Shown: piece after piece, positions 50,270 through 56,164 of the stretch
How the letters are laid out: every line of letters begins with the position of its first letter
How positions within the stretch are numbered: the stretch's first letter is position 1
Assembly (NCBI GenBank): GCA_002840715.1
Contig: PHBW01000012.1
Span: 1,868-65,867, forward strand
DNA length: 64,000 bases
Direction of reading: 5' to 3'
From: Chloroflexi bacterium HGW-Chloroflexi-4
GTDB lineage: Bacteria; Chloroflexota; Anaerolineae; Anaerolineales; Anaerolineaceae
Position numbers and translations under genes: made by a program
Notes under the pieces: model-generated
The model's input: only the letters and a program-made list of their open reading frames with translations
Database searches by the model: none
Told to the model about the DNA's origin: nothing

Positions 50270-50368
50270 GTAAAAAAAATCATAAAGGTTGATTAGATAG
50301 TTGAGTAAAAAACTTAGTTTTCTTTCGTATGTTTCGTCTGTACGTAGTTTGGTACTTTTTAATCAATA

Positions 50369-50398
50369 AAGCCCTGACGCAGGTCGCGGTCAGGGCTT
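50369..50398. terminator. Terminator hairpin between importer operon and SWIM gene
   Basis: Perfect 10-bp stem AAGCCCTGAC (50369-50378) with 50389-50398, 10-base loop. On minus it is followed by TTTATTGATT. It serves the SWIM gene, which ends at 50418, and perhaps the importer operon as well. Confidence 0.6.
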
Positions 50399-50417
50399 AT
50401 CCATAGCAATCAGTTAA

Positions 50418-50669
50418 TTAATTTGCAGATGCTATTTCGATAGGTTGGGTCATGCCCATGAGGATGGTTTCAAGCGACATGGTGTGCACGCAGCGGCTGT
50501 GGGTGATGAAAAATTCACAGTCGCAGACCCATTTTCCGTCTGTGTAGCTTACTTCGTGTGAATTATTATCGCCCTTCACGGTCACAGAGAACGTATGAAA
50601 TTCAAAACGGTCTCTTTCTTGCGCATAACGTTTTGCTTTTTCAATCTTGCCGATCATGCTGTAATCCAT
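50418..50669 (-). CDS. Small SWIM zinc-finger protein
   Basis: 83 aa. Beta-rich start, then CDCEFFITHSRCVH: Cys49, Cys51, Cys60 and His62 in the CxCx8CxH pattern of SWIM zinc fingers, which bind nucleic acid or protein. SD GGAG precedes ATG 50669. Its message has a leader of about 130 bases with a short reading frame and an intrinsic terminator (50702-50741), so expression is probably controlled by attenuation. Confidence 0.75.
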   Translation of the reverse strand: MDYSMIGKIEKAKRYAQERDRFEFHTFSVTVKGDNNSHEVSYTDGKWVCDCEFFITHSRCVHTMSLETILMGMTQPIEIASAN

Positions 50670-50701
50670 GTGATGTGTTACTCCTTTGTTTGTTAAGGAA
50701 G

Positions 50702-50741
50702 ATGGTTAAAACAAAAGGCACGCGGAAATACCGCGTGCCTT
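50702..50741 (-). terminator. Intrinsic terminator/attenuator in the SWIM gene leader
   Basis: Perfect 11-bp stem AAGGCACGCGG (50715-50725) with 50731-50741, 5-base loop, followed on minus by TTTTGTTTT. It lies between the minus promoter at 50809-50837 and the SWIM ATG at 50669, so it would end most transcripts at about 100 bases unless antitermination occurs. Confidence 0.75.
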
Positions 50742-50743
50742 AA

Positions 50744-50785
50744 TGACTTACCTCAATTATCAGTGCTTCTGTCACTCGCATAGTA
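50744..50785 (-). CDS. Possible 13-residue leader peptide
   Basis: On minus, after AGGAG at about 50797-50801, an ATG opens the frame MRVTEALIIEVSH and its TAA stop is right before the terminator stem. Small size makes coding uncertain. Its position between promoter and attenuator is that expected of a leader peptide; a short non-coding RNA of about 100 bases is the alternative. Confidence 0.3.
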
Positions 50786-50808
50786 GATGCATCTCCTATA
50801 TTGGGTAT

Positions 50809-50837
50809 ATAGTATATCTTCCTTACTCATTTGTCAA
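50809..50837 (-). promoter_or_regulatory. Minus-strand promoter upstream of SWIM gene leader
   Basis: TTGACA (50832-50837 in reverse) and TACTAT (50809-50814 in reverse) with exactly 17 bases between them. The -35 is a perfect consensus. Transcription would begin near 50802 and run into the attenuator and SWIM gene. Confidence 0.7.
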
Positions 50838-50956
50838 TAATTACTTTTTAACGATTACCCTACGATTTTCCAATTCCGCAAAAGATTATCCATAAATCAC
50901 TGCGGATTGTGCGATAATTAACCATTGAAATTAATTAAGAGGAGCGGCCCTTTTTT

Positions 50957-51670
50957 ATGTCACCAGAAAAAATTCTCATCGTGGATATTGATTCAAAATC
51001 CATCACACTGTTACGCCAGATTCTGTCGTCGGCAGGTTTCGAAGTCATCAGCGCAAATAGACCGGAGCGGGCGTTGCAATTGGTTACCGAAGAAATTCCC
51101 ATCCTGGTCATCACCGAAACAAGGTTGGATGGCACCCTGGATGGTTTTGGTCTCCTTCACGATATTCGCGAGATCTCCAATATCCCATTTATTTTGCTAA
51201 CGGATCGACCTACATCTGACGATGAGCTTCGTGCTCTAGAAAACGGCGCGGATGATTACCTTGTCAAGCCTTATGATTCACGCATCCTCGTGGCACGTGT
51301 AAAATCCCTTCTGCGCCGTACCAAAAATGCACCTGCCGCTCCTGAAGTCATCCAATGCGGCTCGCTCACCATCAACCAGGTTTCGCGTCAGGTCAGCGTG
51401 GATGAAGTGCCAGTCTACCTAACTGAAACCGAATACAATCTGCTGCTCGAACTTGCCAAACACCCAGATCAGGTCATGCTGCATGAACAACTGCTGCGTG
51501 AAGTATGGGGGCCTGAATACCGCCACGAACTGGATTATCTGCGCTCTTATGTTCACATTTTGCGTAAGAAACTTGAAAAAAATCCTTCGCAACCCGCCAT
51601 GATTGTCAGCCTGTCGGGCATTGGATATAAACTGGCCTCAACCCCTTCAACCAAACCCAAAGGCAAATAA
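50957..51670 (+). CDS. OmpR-type response regulator with Glu in place of the phospho-accepting Asp
   Basis: 237 aa. Receiver (1-120): VDIDS keeps Asp10 and Asp12, Thr82 (LLTDR) and Lys (LVKPYD) are normal, but the acceptor position is Glu54 (VITETRLDG; relatives have D). A C-terminal winged-helix DNA-binding domain (about 128-230) ends YLRSYVHILRKKLE and SLSGIGYKL. Glu often mimics phospho-Asp, so this regulator may be always on or not controlled by phosphorylation. GAGGAG lies 12 bases upstream. Three bases from the GDH homologue, so one operon; it may regulate its own cluster. Confidence 0.88.
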   Translation: MSPEKILIVDIDSKSITLLRQILSSAGFEVISANRPERALQLVTEEIPILVITETRLDGTLDGFGLLHDIREISNIPFILLTDRPTSDDELRALENGADDYLVKPYDSRILVARVKSLLRRTKNAPAAPEVIQCGSLTINQVSRQVSVDEVPVYLTETEYNLLLELAKHPDQVMLHEQLLREVWGPEYRHELDYLRSYVHILRKKLEKNPSQPAMIVSLSGIGYKLASTPSTKPKGK

Positions 51671-51673
51671 GTC

Positions 51674-52963
51674 ATGGATAACGACGGCTCCTTTAACCTT
51701 TTTGAAATGGCACAGAAGCAGTTTGACCGCTCGGCAGACTTGCTCGATCTTGAGCAGCCTGTGCGCGAGTTTCTGCGTCTGCCCATGCGTGAAACTCAAT
51801 TCAGCCTGCCCATCAAACTGGATTCAGGAGAGTCAAAAGTCTTGCGCGGATTCCATGTGCAGTTCAACGACAGCCGCGGACCCGGCAAAGGCGGCGTGCG
51901 TTTTCACCCCGCCCAGACCCTCGACACCATTCGCGCCTTGGGCATGTGGATGACCTGGGAAACCGCCATCGTTAACCTGCCCCTCGGCGGCAGCGCCAGC
52001 GGCGTGGCTTGCGATCCGCACAGCCTGAGCCCCAACGAAATGGAACGCATCTGCCGCGGTTTTGTGCGCAAAGTAGCGCATCACTCCGGCCCTGATTGGG
52101 ATGTTCTCGGACCCGATATCATGACTGGCCCCCAACACATGCTGTGGATGCTGGATGAATATGAGACCATCGTTGGTCACAAAAGCCCTGGTTTCGTTAC
52201 CGGCAAGCCGCTGCATCATGCCGGGTCGCAAGGCCGCAAAGAAGCGCCCGGTTACGGCGTGATGATCGCCGTACGGGAAGCCCTCAAAGATATGGGCATT
52301 GCAGTGGATAAGACCAGCGCAAGCTTTCAAGGTTTCGGTCTGGTGGGTATGCATGCAGCCCAACTTTATCACCAGATGGGCGGCACCATCCAATGCGTGG
52401 CCTGTTGGAATCAAAATGACCGAACCACCTACTCCTTCCGTAAAAAAGAGGGTATTGATTTCGACCAATTAGTTTCAATCACTAACCGTTTTGGTGAGAT
52501 TGACAAACTTAAAGCGTTATCCCTTGGCATAGAGTGCTTTCCTGGAGACGCCTGGCTTCAACAGGATGTTGACATTCTGGTGCCTGCTGCGCTCGAAAAC
52601 CAGATTCGCACGGATAACGTCAACCTGATCGACCCCAAGGTCAAGATCATTGCCGAAGCCGCCAACGGTCCCACCAACCCCATTGTGGACCCCGAACTGA
52701 CCAAACGCGGCATCCTCATCATCCCCGATATCCTCGCCAATTCTGGCGGTGTGGTGTGCAGTTACTTTGAACAAGTGCAGAGCAATATGAACTACTATTG
52801 GAGCAAAGATGAAGTGCTGAGCAAGCTGGATTCGCTCATGACTTCGGCTTACATAGATGTTTCAACATTTGCCAAAAAAAATAATTACACCACCAGGGAT
52901 GCGGTCTACATGCTCGCCGTGGACCGCGTGGCGCGAGCCTGTCTTGATCGCGGTCTGATCTAG
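51674..52963 (+). CDS. Glutamate dehydrogenase homologue lacking catalytic lysines
   Basis: 429 aa, normal family length. N-terminal dimerisation/substrate domain and C-terminal Rossmann domain (SFQGFGLVGMHAAQL about 225-239; IIAEAANGPTNP about 325-336). Lys72 of GPGKGGVRFHP and Asp148 (GPDIMTG) are kept. But the position of the second substrate Lys is Glu96 (MTWETA, normally MTxK), and the catalytic Lys of GGxKGG is Ala108 (GGSASG). The usual chemistry is oxidative deamination of glutamate; without these lysines it should be inactive on glutamate, or use another chemistry, or regulate by binding. Middle gene of a three-gene operon. Confidence 0.88.
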   Translation: MDNDGSFNLFEMAQKQFDRSADLLDLEQPVREFLRLPMRETQFSLPIKLDSGESKVLRGFHVQFNDSRGPGKGGVRFHPAQTLDTIRALGMWMTWETAIVNLPLGGSASGVACDPHSLSPNEMERICRGFVRKVAHHSGPDWDVLGPDIMTGPQHMLWMLDEYETIVGHKSPGFVTGKPLHHAGSQGRKEAPGYGVMIAVREALKDMGIAVDKTSASFQGFGLVGMHAAQLYHQMGGTIQCVACWNQNDRTTYSFRKKEGIDFDQLVSITNRFGEIDKLKALSLGIECFPGDAWLQQDVDILVPAALENQIRTDNVNLIDPKVKIIAEAANGPTNPIVDPELTKRGILIIPDILANSGGVVCSYFEQVQSNMNYYWSKDEVLSKLDSLMTSAYIDVSTFAKKNNYTTRDAVYMLAVDRVARACLDRGLI

Positions 52964-52975
52964 CCGCGCCCTTTC

Positions 52976-54706
52976 ATGATGATTAAGATTGCCAAACATT
53001 TTCAACTGTTATCCATGCGCCGTACCTCCGAGCTGGAACGCATGGCCGCCGGCGACGGGCGTGAAGAACTGGGCGGCAAAGCCCAAGGACTGCTTTCTGT
53101 TCACCAAACCCTGACCGAACTGGATCAATCATCTTTTCCCGAAATCAAACTGGATATTCCCCGTCTTACCGTAGTCGGCACCAGCATCTTTGAGGCGTTT
53201 ATTCAACGCAACGGCCTTGAATACATCGCCCACTCTGGATTATCTGATACGCGCATTGCCAACGCTTTTCAACGCGGCGATATGCCTTTTGAGGCTTTGG
53301 GGGAACTTCGCGCCCTTTCAGACGCATGGATCACGCCCCTGGCCGTCCGTTCAAGTGGATTGCTCGAAGACCTCACCGAAAGACCATTTGCCGGCGTCTA
53401 TCTTACCAAAATGATCCCGAACAACCAGGCCGACCCGGATACACGCTTTGCCAAGATGTTGGAAGCAATCAAATTCGTGTGGGCATCCACTTTTTTTAAG
53501 ATCGCTCGCGACTACTGCCAGGCCACCGGGCTGGATATCTGCCAGGAAAAAATGGCAGTCATTCTGCAGGAAGTCATAGGACGAAAACACGGAGACCGTT
53601 TTTATCCAGAACTTTCAGGGGTTGCTCGCTCTTACAACTTCTATCCGCTTAAGCCAGCCAAACCCGAGGATGGCGTGGTTAACCTGGCGCTAGGGCTTGG
53701 CAAGACCATTGTAGATGGAGGCCGCTGCTGGATTTACTCCCCGGCTTACCCTGAAATGCCCCCGCCTTACGATTCCACCGAAGAGTTGCTTGAAGAAACC
53801 CAAACCGATTTCTGGATGATTAATATGGGCGAACCACCAGAGTTCAACCCCATCAAGGAAACCGAGTTTTTACAGGTCGAAAACCTGATGATGGCAGACA
53901 AAGACGGCACGCTTGCACATCTTGCTTCCACTTACGACCCTGAGTCTGAACGGCTGATCGTTGGCACCGACGCCAAAGGCACCCGCGCCTTGACCTTTTC
54001 ACCCCTGCTCATTAACAAAACAATCCCGGTCAATGCCCTGATCAAGCGCATGCTGGCAAGCTGCGAAACCAAACTCGGCTGCCCCGTGGAAGTTGAATTT
54101 GCCATGACCTTTGATCCGCCGCGCTTCGGTTTTTTACAGGTGCGGCCCATGGCGGTGCCTGAAGGCAGCCTGGAACTCACCTCTGAAGAAATGCAGAACC
54201 CCAAAGCGTTAGCCTCGTCAGAAGTGGTGCTGGGCAACGGCGTGGATGATGAAATTACCGATATTGTTTATGTGATACCGGAACTGTTTGACCTCAAGAA
54301 CACTCGCCCCATGGCTGAGGAACTTGACCTGCACAACCACAGGCTCCTGGATGAAGGCCGAAAATACTTGTTGATTGTCTTTGGCAGATTGGGCACCGAA
54401 GATTCCTGGCTTGGCATCCCCGTTGCCTGGGGGCAGATTTGCGGAGCCAGCGTGATTATTGAAGCCACCCAGCAAAACGTCAAAGTGGAATTAAGTCAGG
54501 GGACGCATTACTTCCATAACATCATCAACCTGGGCGTCAAACACTTTTCCATGCCCTTCACCAGTCCCTTTCGCGTTGATTGGGATTGGCTCCTGCAGCA
54601 GTCGGTGGCAAATGCCATGCACTATACACGCCACGTTCGCTTGACGCACCCCCTGCACATAAAGGTCGATGGCCGCCACGGTCGGGGGACGATTCACCAC
54701 GCATAA
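52976..54706 (+). CDS. PEP-synthase/PPDK N-terminal ATP-binding domain protein (stand-alone)
   Basis: 576 aa, 12 bases after the GDH homologue. Residues about 30-400 match the ATP-grasp-like nucleotide-binding part of PEP synthase and pyruvate phosphate dikinase: LGGKAQGLL, LAVRSSGLLEDLTERPFAGVYLT (start of the stretch; Arg-Ser-Ser and Glu-Asp), LALGLGKTIVDGG and FGFLQVRPM. The swivelling His domain and PEP/pyruvate TIM barrel are absent; instead about 170 residues of unassigned sequence follow. It may phosphorylate or bind a partner with ATP. A role together with the receiver and GDH-like protein is inferred from the operon only. Confidence 0.8.
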   Translation: MMIKIAKHFQLLSMRRTSELERMAAGDGREELGGKAQGLLSVHQTLTELDQSSFPEIKLDIPRLTVVGTSIFEAFIQRNGLEYIAHSGLSDTRIANAFQRGDMPFEALGELRALSDAWITPLAVRSSGLLEDLTERPFAGVYLTKMIPNNQADPDTRFAKMLEAIKFVWASTFFKIARDYCQATGLDICQEKMAVILQEVIGRKHGDRFYPELSGVARSYNFYPLKPAKPEDGVVNLALGLGKTIVDGGRCWIYSPAYPEMPPPYDSTEELLEETQTDFWMINMGEPPEFNPIKETEFLQVENLMMADKDGTLAHLASTYDPESERLIVGTDAKGTRALTFSPLLINKTIPVNALIKRMLASCETKLGCPVEVEFAMTFDPPRFGFLQVRPMAVPEGSLELTSEEMQNPKALASSEVVLGNGVDDEITDIVYVIPELFDLKNTRPMAEELDLHNHRLLDEGRKYLLIVFGRLGTEDSWLGIPVAWGQICGASVIIEATQQNVKVELSQGTHYFHNIINLGVKHFSMPFTSPFRVDWDWLLQQSVANAMHYTRHVRLTHPLHIKVDGRHGRGTIHHA

Positions 54707-54760
54707 TCTTTCGAAGATTTCCTCCCAGTTTTTTTATAACCACGGGGAAATGCCTTAATC

Positions 54761-56164
54761 TTAGCCCTTACAAGAATCCCTTCTCGCCTTCACAAAGGCT
54801 CTCACTGTGCGACTGATATCTTCTTCGGTGGTTGCCCACGAACACACACTCACTCTGATGACCGGCATCTCATGCCATTTTCCACTGCCGCACCAACACT
54901 CGCCGGAGCGTTGCAAATTTCGCAACGTGGCTGCCGTCTCTTCTGGCGACCCGCAGGTCACCAACACCTGGTTGAAGACAACATCATTCAAGACATTGAA
55001 TCCTTCAGTCGTGATGTCTGTAGCAAATTGACATGCCCTGTCACACAGGCCGTCCACCAATTCCTCCACGCCACTTTTACCTAACAGTTTGAGCGTCGCC
55101 CACAACTCCACCGCCCTTCCACGGCGGGACATGTCGGGTGAATACAGCATTCCGTCGCGCTGGTCGCTGTAGAGGATGTAGTCTCCACTGGCCTGCATGG
55201 CCGTGATCATGGCATTGCGGTCCCTGCAGATCACGATACCGCAGTCATAGGGGGTGTTGAGCGTCTTGTGGCCATCCACCGACCACGAATCGGCCTTTTC
55301 CATCCCCATGGTTAAATACTGCTTATTCTTGGATGCGGCCGCCCATAAACCGAAAGCGCCATCCACGTGCACCCAGGCGCCGGCTTTGTTTGCCATGTCG
55401 CATATCTCGTCAATCGGGTCAAACGATCCGCTGTTCACATTGCCTGCCTGCAAGATCAATAAAGTGTTGTCATCCAACGCCGGAACCTTATCCGCGCGCA
55501 TGCGCCCCTGCTCATCCACAGGCACAAGTTCCACCCGGTCTTTTCCCAATCCTAAAATCGCCAGTGCTTTGAACACTGAACTGTGCGCTTCAGCACCCAC
55601 CACCACACGGATGGGCGGTGCCCCGAATAGTCCTTTCGTGTTGACATCCCAATCGGCGCGTCTAAGCAATTCATAACGGGCAGCAGCAAAACCCACCATT
55701 GTTGCCATGGATGTGCCGCTGACCAACCCCATTGCGCAATCTTTGGGAAGACCCAGTAAATCGTTCATCCACTGTTCGCTTACAGTTTCCAGCTTGGCCA
55801 TGATGGGTGAAGTCACATAAAGAGGCGCCAGTTGGTCCCAGACATCCGCCAGCCATTTCACTGCCAACACCGGTGCGAAGGAACCGCCCACAACCAGACC
55901 AAAGTACCGGCCGCCAGTGGTCGCCACTGTCGCCGGGGATCCATAGTCATGCAGCAGCTTTAACATGCTGGCCGGATCATCCGCATCAATCGGCATCGGT
56001 TCGTCAAAATGCTTCAAGTTTTGCAGCGCAATATCATTTGGGTAAACTTCTCTTTCAAAAATGCCGTCCAGATAATCAAGGGCATAATCTTTAGCCTGGT
56101 TGAACACCGCGCGATCACTTGCCAGTTTAATCATCCTGGCCTGTAATTTCTTGGATATTGCCAT
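54761..56164 (-). CDS. PLP-dependent group II amino-acid decarboxylase
   Basis: 467 aa. Type I PLP fold with VSGTSMATMVG (phosphate site), AEAHSSVFKA, VHVDGAFGLWAA (Asp to the pyridine N) and SWSVDGHKTLN with PLP-Lys300. The group contains aromatic-amino-acid, glutamate and cysteine-sulfinate decarboxylases. The substrate is not clear, though overall it looks closer to aromatic/tyrosine-type enzymes. Convergent with the GDH/ATP-binding operon, with about 55 bases between stops. Confidence 0.85.
   Translation of the reverse strand: MAISKKLQARMIKLASDRAVFNQAKDYALDYLDGIFEREVYPNDIALQNLKHFDEPMPIDADDPASMLKLLHDYGSPATVATTGGRYFGLVVGGSFAPVLAVKWLADVWDQLAPLYVTSPIMAKLETVSEQWMNDLLGLPKDCAMGLVSGTSMATMVGFAAARYELLRRADWDVNTKGLFGAPPIRVVVGAEAHSSVFKALAILGLGKDRVELVPVDEQGRMRADKVPALDDNTLLILQAGNVNSGSFDPIDEICDMANKAGAWVHVDGAFGLWAAASKNKQYLTMGMEKADSWSVDGHKTLNTPYDCGIVICRDRNAMITAMQASGDYILYSDQRDGMLYSPDMSRRGRAVELWATLKLLGKSGVEELVDGLCDRACQFATDITTEGFNVLNDVVFNQVLVTCGSPEETAATLRNLQRSGECWCGSGKWHEMPVIRVSVCSWATTEEDISRTVRAFVKARRDSCKG

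Follow-up and report, generated by a model that had tools for sequence, protein, structure and literature searches.

Precedents exist singly for dead glutamate dehydrogenase (GDH) subunits, for trigger enzymes and for pseudo-receivers. They appear combined in one cassette in a 64,000-nucleotide stretch of DNA from Chloroflexi bacterium HGW-Chloroflexi-4 (the whole stretch is termed the window), where adjacent genes encode an OmpR/PhoB-type regulator, a GDH homologue with its catalytic lysine replaced (GDH-a) and an ATP-binding protein of the PPDK_N type (P3). The comparisons with known systems draw on excerpts of the cited papers. In Thermus thermophilus an inactive GDH paralogue, GdhA, and a nucleotide-sensing inactive APRT homologue regulate GDH, with GdhA and GdhB assembled into a heterohexamer (PMC9570180). 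GdhA and GDH-a are both catalytically inactive GDH paralogues, GDH-a being so judged by its sequence, whereas the Thermus partner is an APRT homologue and the partner of GDH-a an ATP-grasp protein, often with a regulator gene present; the Thermus hexamers are mixed, and GDH-a is known here as a gene. Bacillus subtilis RocG is a trigger enzyme, a GDH reporting glutamate status to GltC, the factor for the glutamate synthase genes (PMC6794564). The window pairs a dead GDH with an OmpR-type regulator, whereas RocG retains enzyme activity and GltC belongs to the LysR type.

Atypical response regulators with Glu replacing the phosphorylated Asp include CmrT of Clostridioides difficile and AtvR of Pseudomonas aeruginosa, CmrT having D-G-D in place of the DD pair together with Glu53, a glutamate termed phosphomimetic (PMC12548384). 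The window regulator shows the same pair of changes as CmrT, in the acidic pair and from phospho-Asp to Glu, and the available excerpt of that paper does not mention a link of CmrT or AtvR to a GDH or a PPDK_N protein. Actinomycete GlnR is an OmpR-type nitrogen regulator whose Asp functions without phosphorylation and is needed for the dimer (PMC12632262); GlnR keeps this Asp, whereas the window regulator has Glu54. The switching of pseudo-receivers is termed a mystery in a 2025 perspective (PMC12632262), and a protein pair encoded beside a pseudo-receiver renders the switching question testable. The PPDK_N ATP-grasp of P3 is common to HpeI/HpeH, the PpsAB dikinases, rifampin phosphotransferase and phosphoenolpyruvate (PEP) synthase, HpeI likewise being a separate protein. 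By the tests applied, none of Thermus GdhA, RocG, CmrT/AtvR and HpeI proved to be the same system and, in agreement with the preliminary description of this locus, neither a system of this make-up nor the wider cassette reported below was found described in the open-access literature searched.

The window module is best read as a derived form of an older and wider GDH cassette. The comparisons suggest that in some Chloroflexota an old enzyme cassette has turned into a nitrogen-sensing device, because strong selection maintains a catalytically dead GDH next to an ATP-binding partner and often a regulator. In the favoured reading, which is given a probability of roughly 0.45, P3, an ATP-grasp protein that accompanies this lineage of GDHs across many phyla, would be the dedicated partner of GDH-a, and the two may form a sensing complex in which GDH-a would read glutamate or 2-oxoglutarate and P3 an adenine nucleotide. 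The state of the complex would be passed to active GDH and glutamate synthase (GOGAT) or to the adjacent regulator, the direction of signalling and the target genes being presumed, and the regulator would need no kinase because Glu54 would mimic phosphorylation.

GDH-a and P3 as the constant core

A close P3 is present in 15 of 101 genomes of the same family (E below 1e-200; the next best match, 6e-42, lies within an 809-aa frame) and GDH-a, at an identity of 61% or more, in the same 15. The pair is adjacent in 14/15, the remaining genome (G023) having each gene at a contig end, and the regulator adjoins it in 9/15. The constant core is two genes, the dead GDH and P3, instead of three; the earlier expectation that the three genes stay together holds for GDH-a and P3 and fails for the regulator. 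Across the class 2/396 genomes have a P3 this close, the second being G367; P3 matches of 38-40% occur in a further 19, and for 16 of these the open frame measures at least 990 aa.

The earlier view of a module closed at three genes did not stand. In 12/15 family genomes P3 is directly followed by a further GDH that is intact (GDH-b), sharing about 33% identity with GDH-a and retaining all three lysines in 14/14; G023 and G026 carry GDH-b elsewhere, on different contigs, and the window genome alone has none. L096 likewise has no GDH-b at this site and has the same decarboxylase gene next, so the gap is no assembly fault of a single genome. A canonical GDH, 48-52% identical to GDH-a, is found in 15/15 module genomes at a locus apart from the module, the G057 copy being a contig-end fragment. 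With canonical GDH in 15/15 and GDH-b in 14/15, catalysis is therefore covered elsewhere. In the fetched flanks a glutamate synthase gene lies no more than about 1.5 kb from the module in 4/15 genomes: gltB and a gltD-like gene adjoin it in G045, G062 and G011, and in G095 gltB is about 1.3 kb upstream and divergent (Pfam confirmed the neighbours in G045 and G095). These genes and the intact GDH alongside bear out the glutamate-metabolism context first proposed.

A P3-alignment scan of named genomes gave at least 80 loci; the cassette counts in this text refer to the 80 listed (L096-L175), with phylum names as labelled in the titles of the assembled-genome records. A same-strand GDH lies upstream within 2.5 kb of P3 in 63 of the 71 listed loci where the upstream DNA extends for at least 1.5 kb, and GDH-P3 loci (65 of the 80) occur under 17 phylum-level names, Chloroflexota included. 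Leptolinea tardivitalis and Anaerolinea thermolimosa (L099 and L100) are among the named strains in which the pair is present. Adjacency of the three genes by chance, which might be argued from the 6/15 genomes where the regulator is not beside the pair, is hardly credible against such a distribution, and for the GDH-P3 pair it is refuted by the 63/71 loci.

Residues lost and retained in GDH-a

GDH-a matches the ELFV family profiles PF02812 and PF00208, and NCBIfam GdhA_Arch scores it at 400 bits against a curated cut-off of 750. Glu96 (codon 51959-51961) and Ala108 (codon 51995-51997) stand in for the substrate and catalytic lysines, and both positions are Lys in the genome's other GDH and in cassette GDHs of other phyla. 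The catalytic lysine is presumably K125 in the numbering of Clostridium symbiosum GDH. Lys72 (51887-51889), Asp148 (52115-52117) and Ser363 (52760-52762) are kept. Residues were surveyed in 64 cassette GDHs, 13 from Chloroflexota and 51 from elsewhere (L127, with a GDH fragment only, was left out). Lys72 is retained in 64/64, and position 108 is Lys in 50/51 non-Chloroflexota sequences and in 0/13 from Chloroflexota, where Met, Ser or Ala is present. Glu96 is restricted to the window clade, a set of four genomes (G000, which is the window genome, G095, L096 and L097); elsewhere in Chloroflexota position 96 is Arg in L105, L108 and G026, Asn in G023 and Lys in the remainder. Both substitutions singled out in the preliminary description are thus present and the loss of Lys108 extends to all the Chloroflexota cassette GDHs surveyed, whereas Glu96 is confined to four genomes and is no module-wide trait; close homologues lack Asp54 of the regulator and the catalytic lysine, but outside the window clade they mostly keep the substrate lysine.

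The sole exception at position 108 outside the Chloroflexota is the Delongbacteria GDH of L147 (from about 7630), with Asn in place of the catalytic lysine, which its sister L152 has. An independent parallel loss or a sequencing error is possible. L147 and L152 both carry a GDH-b-type gene directly upstream of the cassette GDH.

In a tree of 74 GDH sequences the 21 dead Chloroflexota cassette GDHs group as a single clade (support 100/99) nested (98/93) among active cassette GDHs from Calditrichota, Bacteroidota, Chlorobiota, Delongbacteria and some Ignavibacteriota. The catalytic lysine was therefore most likely lost once, following the arrival of the cassette in Chloroflexota, a direction that we infer. 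Seventeen sites conserved across 44 active GDHs are lost in the dead ones, five of them (108, 109, 145, 146 and 223) within the catalytic and Rossmann motifs and the remainder mostly mild changes. Conservation of K72, D148 and S363 extends across dead and active enzymes, the GFG of the Rossmann motif is kept, and at the thresholds used no site carries a new residue fixed in the dead clade when compared with the 44 active GDHs. GDH-a is most likely a pseudoenzyme: it retains the fold of a GDH, the greater part of the Rossmann motif and several residues of the substrate site, but the catalytic lysine is missing. As P3 stayed with GDH-a after catalysis went, the link between them would not be flux through GDH-a, and a link kept through the loss of catalysis is more likely to be physical or regulatory than metabolic.

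Within the window clade the ratio of nonsynonymous to synonymous substitution rates (dN/dS) is 0.041-0.079 for the regulator, 0.022-0.036 for GDH-a and 0.043-0.065 for P3, in comparisons where synonymous divergence (dS), at 0.65-1.4, is near saturation. One pair run through the same script gave reference values of about 0.011 (DnaN) and 0.06 (the decarboxylase on the flank). Strong purifying selection on all three genes is supported by these estimates and, with the frames intact, the earlier proposal that residues were selectively lost instead of decaying is upheld. Selection of this strength, and the retained GFG, K72, D148 and S363, would also suit a GDH-a that has gained a new catalytic activity with the lysine replaced by Ser, Met or Ala; such a gain is improbable given that residue 108 varies among the 21 dead GDHs (S 11, M 7, A 3) and that, unlike what a gained activity would leave, no new residue has become fixed.

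It is possible, if rather doubtful, that GDH-a is a regulatory subunit in mixed hexamers with an active GDH, either canonical or GDH-b, and that P3 is an accessory nucleotide sensor, as in Thermus. The Thermus precedent (PMC9570180) favours such an arrangement, as do a canonical GDH of the same subfamily in all 15 module genomes, one as a contig-end fragment, and many residues invariant in dead and active GDHs alike, which were scored along the sequence with no interface mapped. The module, however, is located apart from the canonical GDH. GDH-a scores 217 bits with 3aoe_E, the Thermus GdhA chain, against 298 bits with 3aoe_A (GdhB) and 348 bits with 2tmg, which we take to be Thermotoga GDH; it is no nearer to GdhA than to GdhB by score, so any likeness would be convergent. 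Orthology of GDH-a with Thermus GdhA was rejected on scores, without a tree, as 3aoe_E falls below 3aoe_A and other GDHs.

P3 and the wider cassette

The ATP-site residues K35, R125, E372, E374, Q388 and R390 are invariant in 40/40 aligned P3 sequences (39 chosen from the 80 listed loci and that of the window). They match the ATP site of PPDK by motif, K22 and R337 of PPDK being named in the titles of 1jde and 2dik; the remaining equivalences are our assumption. PF01326 is the sole Pfam domain across the 576 aa of P3, with no Pfam match to a swivelling phosphohistidine domain and no PEP/pyruvate-binding barrel found. The preliminary description was right about these domains but took P3 to be missing something its family needs; the absence of the swivelling domain is a trait of a large family, not a loss specific to the window gene, and the ATP-site residues checked are all kept. 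The C-terminal domain bears the family motifs GFGRWGSSDPWLGIP and SQGSHFFHN, which read VFGRLGTEDSWLGIP and SQGTHYFHN in the window, and when folded alone (predicted local distance difference test score, pLDDT, 91) it has no fold match in the PDB by Foldseek at E 0.001 or better. The idea that it is a disguised phosphohistidine swivelling domain, with its GSH motif starting a helix, is unsupported given the lack of a PDB match at that threshold, and His511 of P3 being Arg in L167 counts against it.

Searched with Foldseek, the AlphaFold model of the whole P3 (mean pLDDT 86) gives matches to rifampin phosphotransferase, PEP synthase and HpeI (9goj). With the retained ATP-site residues and the published HpeHI two-component system, as far as its available excerpt describes it, these matches would allow P3 to be the ATP-grasp half of an HpeI/HpeH-like dikinase that phosphorylates a metabolite or protein through an unlinked histidine domain, GDH-a giving the binding site. 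This is an unlikely arrangement, as P3 differs from the HpeI group in bearing its own extra, uncharacterised C-terminal domain, for which the PDB search that found no match included swivelling domains, and no gene for a histidine-domain partner was recognised beside P3, where neighbours were labelled with a few seed proteins and no dedicated search was made. The window genome also encodes a second PPDK_N protein, of 772 aa (L091:6461-8779, contig C16), adjoining the DNA polymerase III beta subunit gene; PPDK_N is its sole domain above the Pfam cut-off and it too has no histidine domain.

Beyond the Anaerolineaceae the pair is part of a four-gene cassette comprising GDH, P3, a longer PPDK_N protein (P3long) and a calcineurin-like phosphoesterase, complete in 38/80 listed loci under 17 phylum-level names, Chloroflexota again included. 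P3long is downstream in 65/74 listed loci with room; of the nine that lack it, eight are the Anaerolineaceae loci L096-L103. It combines PPDK_N with a nucleotidyltransferase domain (PF01909), and a GAF match in L111 is below the curated cut-off. The phosphoesterase is downstream in 37 of 53 listed loci with 5 kb or more of downstream DNA, and PF00149 matched in two of three tested. It follows 39/44 P3long genes with the nucleotidyltransferase motif versus 1/6 without (Fisher p 0.0006, relatedness not corrected), counted over 50 complete P3long genes of the listed loci with 1 kb or more downstream and with overlapping convergent genes tolerated. Four otherwise eligible loci were dropped by the length filter: L127 is broken, L128 has motif and phosphoesterase, L175 has neither that could be found, and L139, with an open reading frame of 910 aa, has no phosphoesterase found. 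As motif and phosphoesterase go together, the counts hint at a writer and eraser pair. A phosphoesterase homologue is close only in G026 (57%) among the 15 family genomes, with weak matches in G011 and G023. The fullest island seen, L105:5585-19000, brings together a histidine kinase, an Asp-bearing regulator, a dead GDH, P3, P3long, phosphoesterase, an intact GDH-b and an 851-aa PPDK_N protein.

The ancestral cassette might reversibly modify, perhaps nucleotidylate, GDH according to energy and nitrogen state as a counterpart of GlnE/GlnD, the Chloroflexota GDH having become a non-catalytic sensor with P3 and a kinase-free regulator, although this is a speculative and on balance doubtful proposal. 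In the parent cassette GDH is accompanied by a nucleotidyltransferase domain resembling a writer and a phosphoesterase resembling an eraser, which would point to an unstudied layer of nitrogen control. Because the pair has no P3long, phosphoesterase or kinase beside it, nor in the window a GDH-b, and the relatives suggest a stepwise loss, the three genes could be taken for decaying relics of this cassette, but dN/dS of 0.02-0.08 in intact frames and the same gene pair in 15/15 holders make decay very improbable. PADLOC anti-phage defence models gave no match to GDH-a or P3 at E 1e-4, and an anti-phage role was rejected, the weak PADLOC matches of the regulator, P3long and phosphoesterase fitting their general domains.

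The regulator and the surroundings of the module

The regulator matches PF00072 and PF00486, a receiver followed by a winged-helix DNA-binding domain, in which D10-I11-D12 replaces the DD pair and Glu54 (codon 51116-51118) the phosphoacceptor Asp, with Thr82 and Lys104 retained. In the derived clade of regulators (support 96/95) the second acidic residue is gone and Lys104 kept in 11/11, and Glu54 is present in 10/11, the Glu-bearing sequences being contiguous on the regulator tree with weak support (68/78). Relatives have Asp at the position of Glu54, in agreement with the original assignment of this residue to the phospho-Asp position. Asp and both members of the acidic pair are present in all four deeper Chloroflexota cassettes, L105, L108, L109 and L115; a GAF-HisKA-HATPase kinase adjoins the regulator in L105, L108 and L115, and in L109 the contig starts too near to tell. 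The relatives resemble intermediate steps, from an active cassette in other phyla, through a single clade whose catalytic lysine is gone, to absence of the kinase and loss of the phosphoacceptor, which makes the origin of a pseudoenzyme-based signalling module traceable.

Several observations weigh against a sensing complex of GDH-a and P3. K96 is also lost in the window clade, which should weaken carboxylate binding. The regulator, next to the pair in only 9/15 genomes, is no obligatory output, and one derived receiver (G077) retains Asp. The window genome has no GDH-b, although at a completeness of 85.6% only the absence beside P3 is firm, and a P3 this close is rare in the class (2/396).

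The source genome comprises 3.86 Mb in 50 contigs. The three frames of the module are free of internal stops and separated by 3 and 12 bases, as first described. Table 1 lists the features of the locus; a promoter role is inferred for the conserved block upstream of the regulator.

Table 1. Features of the module and its flanks, in window coordinates
Feature	Position	Strand	Basis
Upstream region with a block shared by four genomes (TTGTGCGATAATTAA.CATTGAA) and a GAGGAG ribosome-binding site	50900..50956	+	Four-genome alignment
OmpR/PhoB-type orphan regulator, pseudo-receiver, 237 aa	50957..51670	+	Pfam Response_reg and Trans_reg_C
GDH-a, catalytically dead GDH homologue, 429 aa	51674..52963	+	Pfam ELFV_dehydrog_N and ELFV_dehydrog
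P3, PPDK_N ATP-binding protein, 576 aa	52976..54706	+	Pfam PPDK_N only
P3 C-terminal domain, residues 404-576	54185..54703	+	Family motifs, without a Pfam model
GDH-b site in relatives (G095 and 11 other family genomes, and L097); empty in the window genome and L096	54707..54763		

The module is flanked on the minus strand by a pyridoxal-dependent decarboxylase gene (PF00282) at 54764-56164, a position conserved in G095, L096 and L097. Upstream, an 83-aa gene on the minus strand (50418-50669) has no Pfam match and its sequence looks like a SWIM-type zinc finger. No RNA element matched Rfam at gathering scores across 50300-55000. A strong hairpin followed by T-rich sequence lies upstream of the 83-aa gene on the minus strand (window 50705-50820, fold z -2.9) and could act as an attenuator or represent a small RNA. 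Just before it, a possible 13-codon leader frame with a ribosome-binding site is seen by eye in 4/4 aligned genomes.

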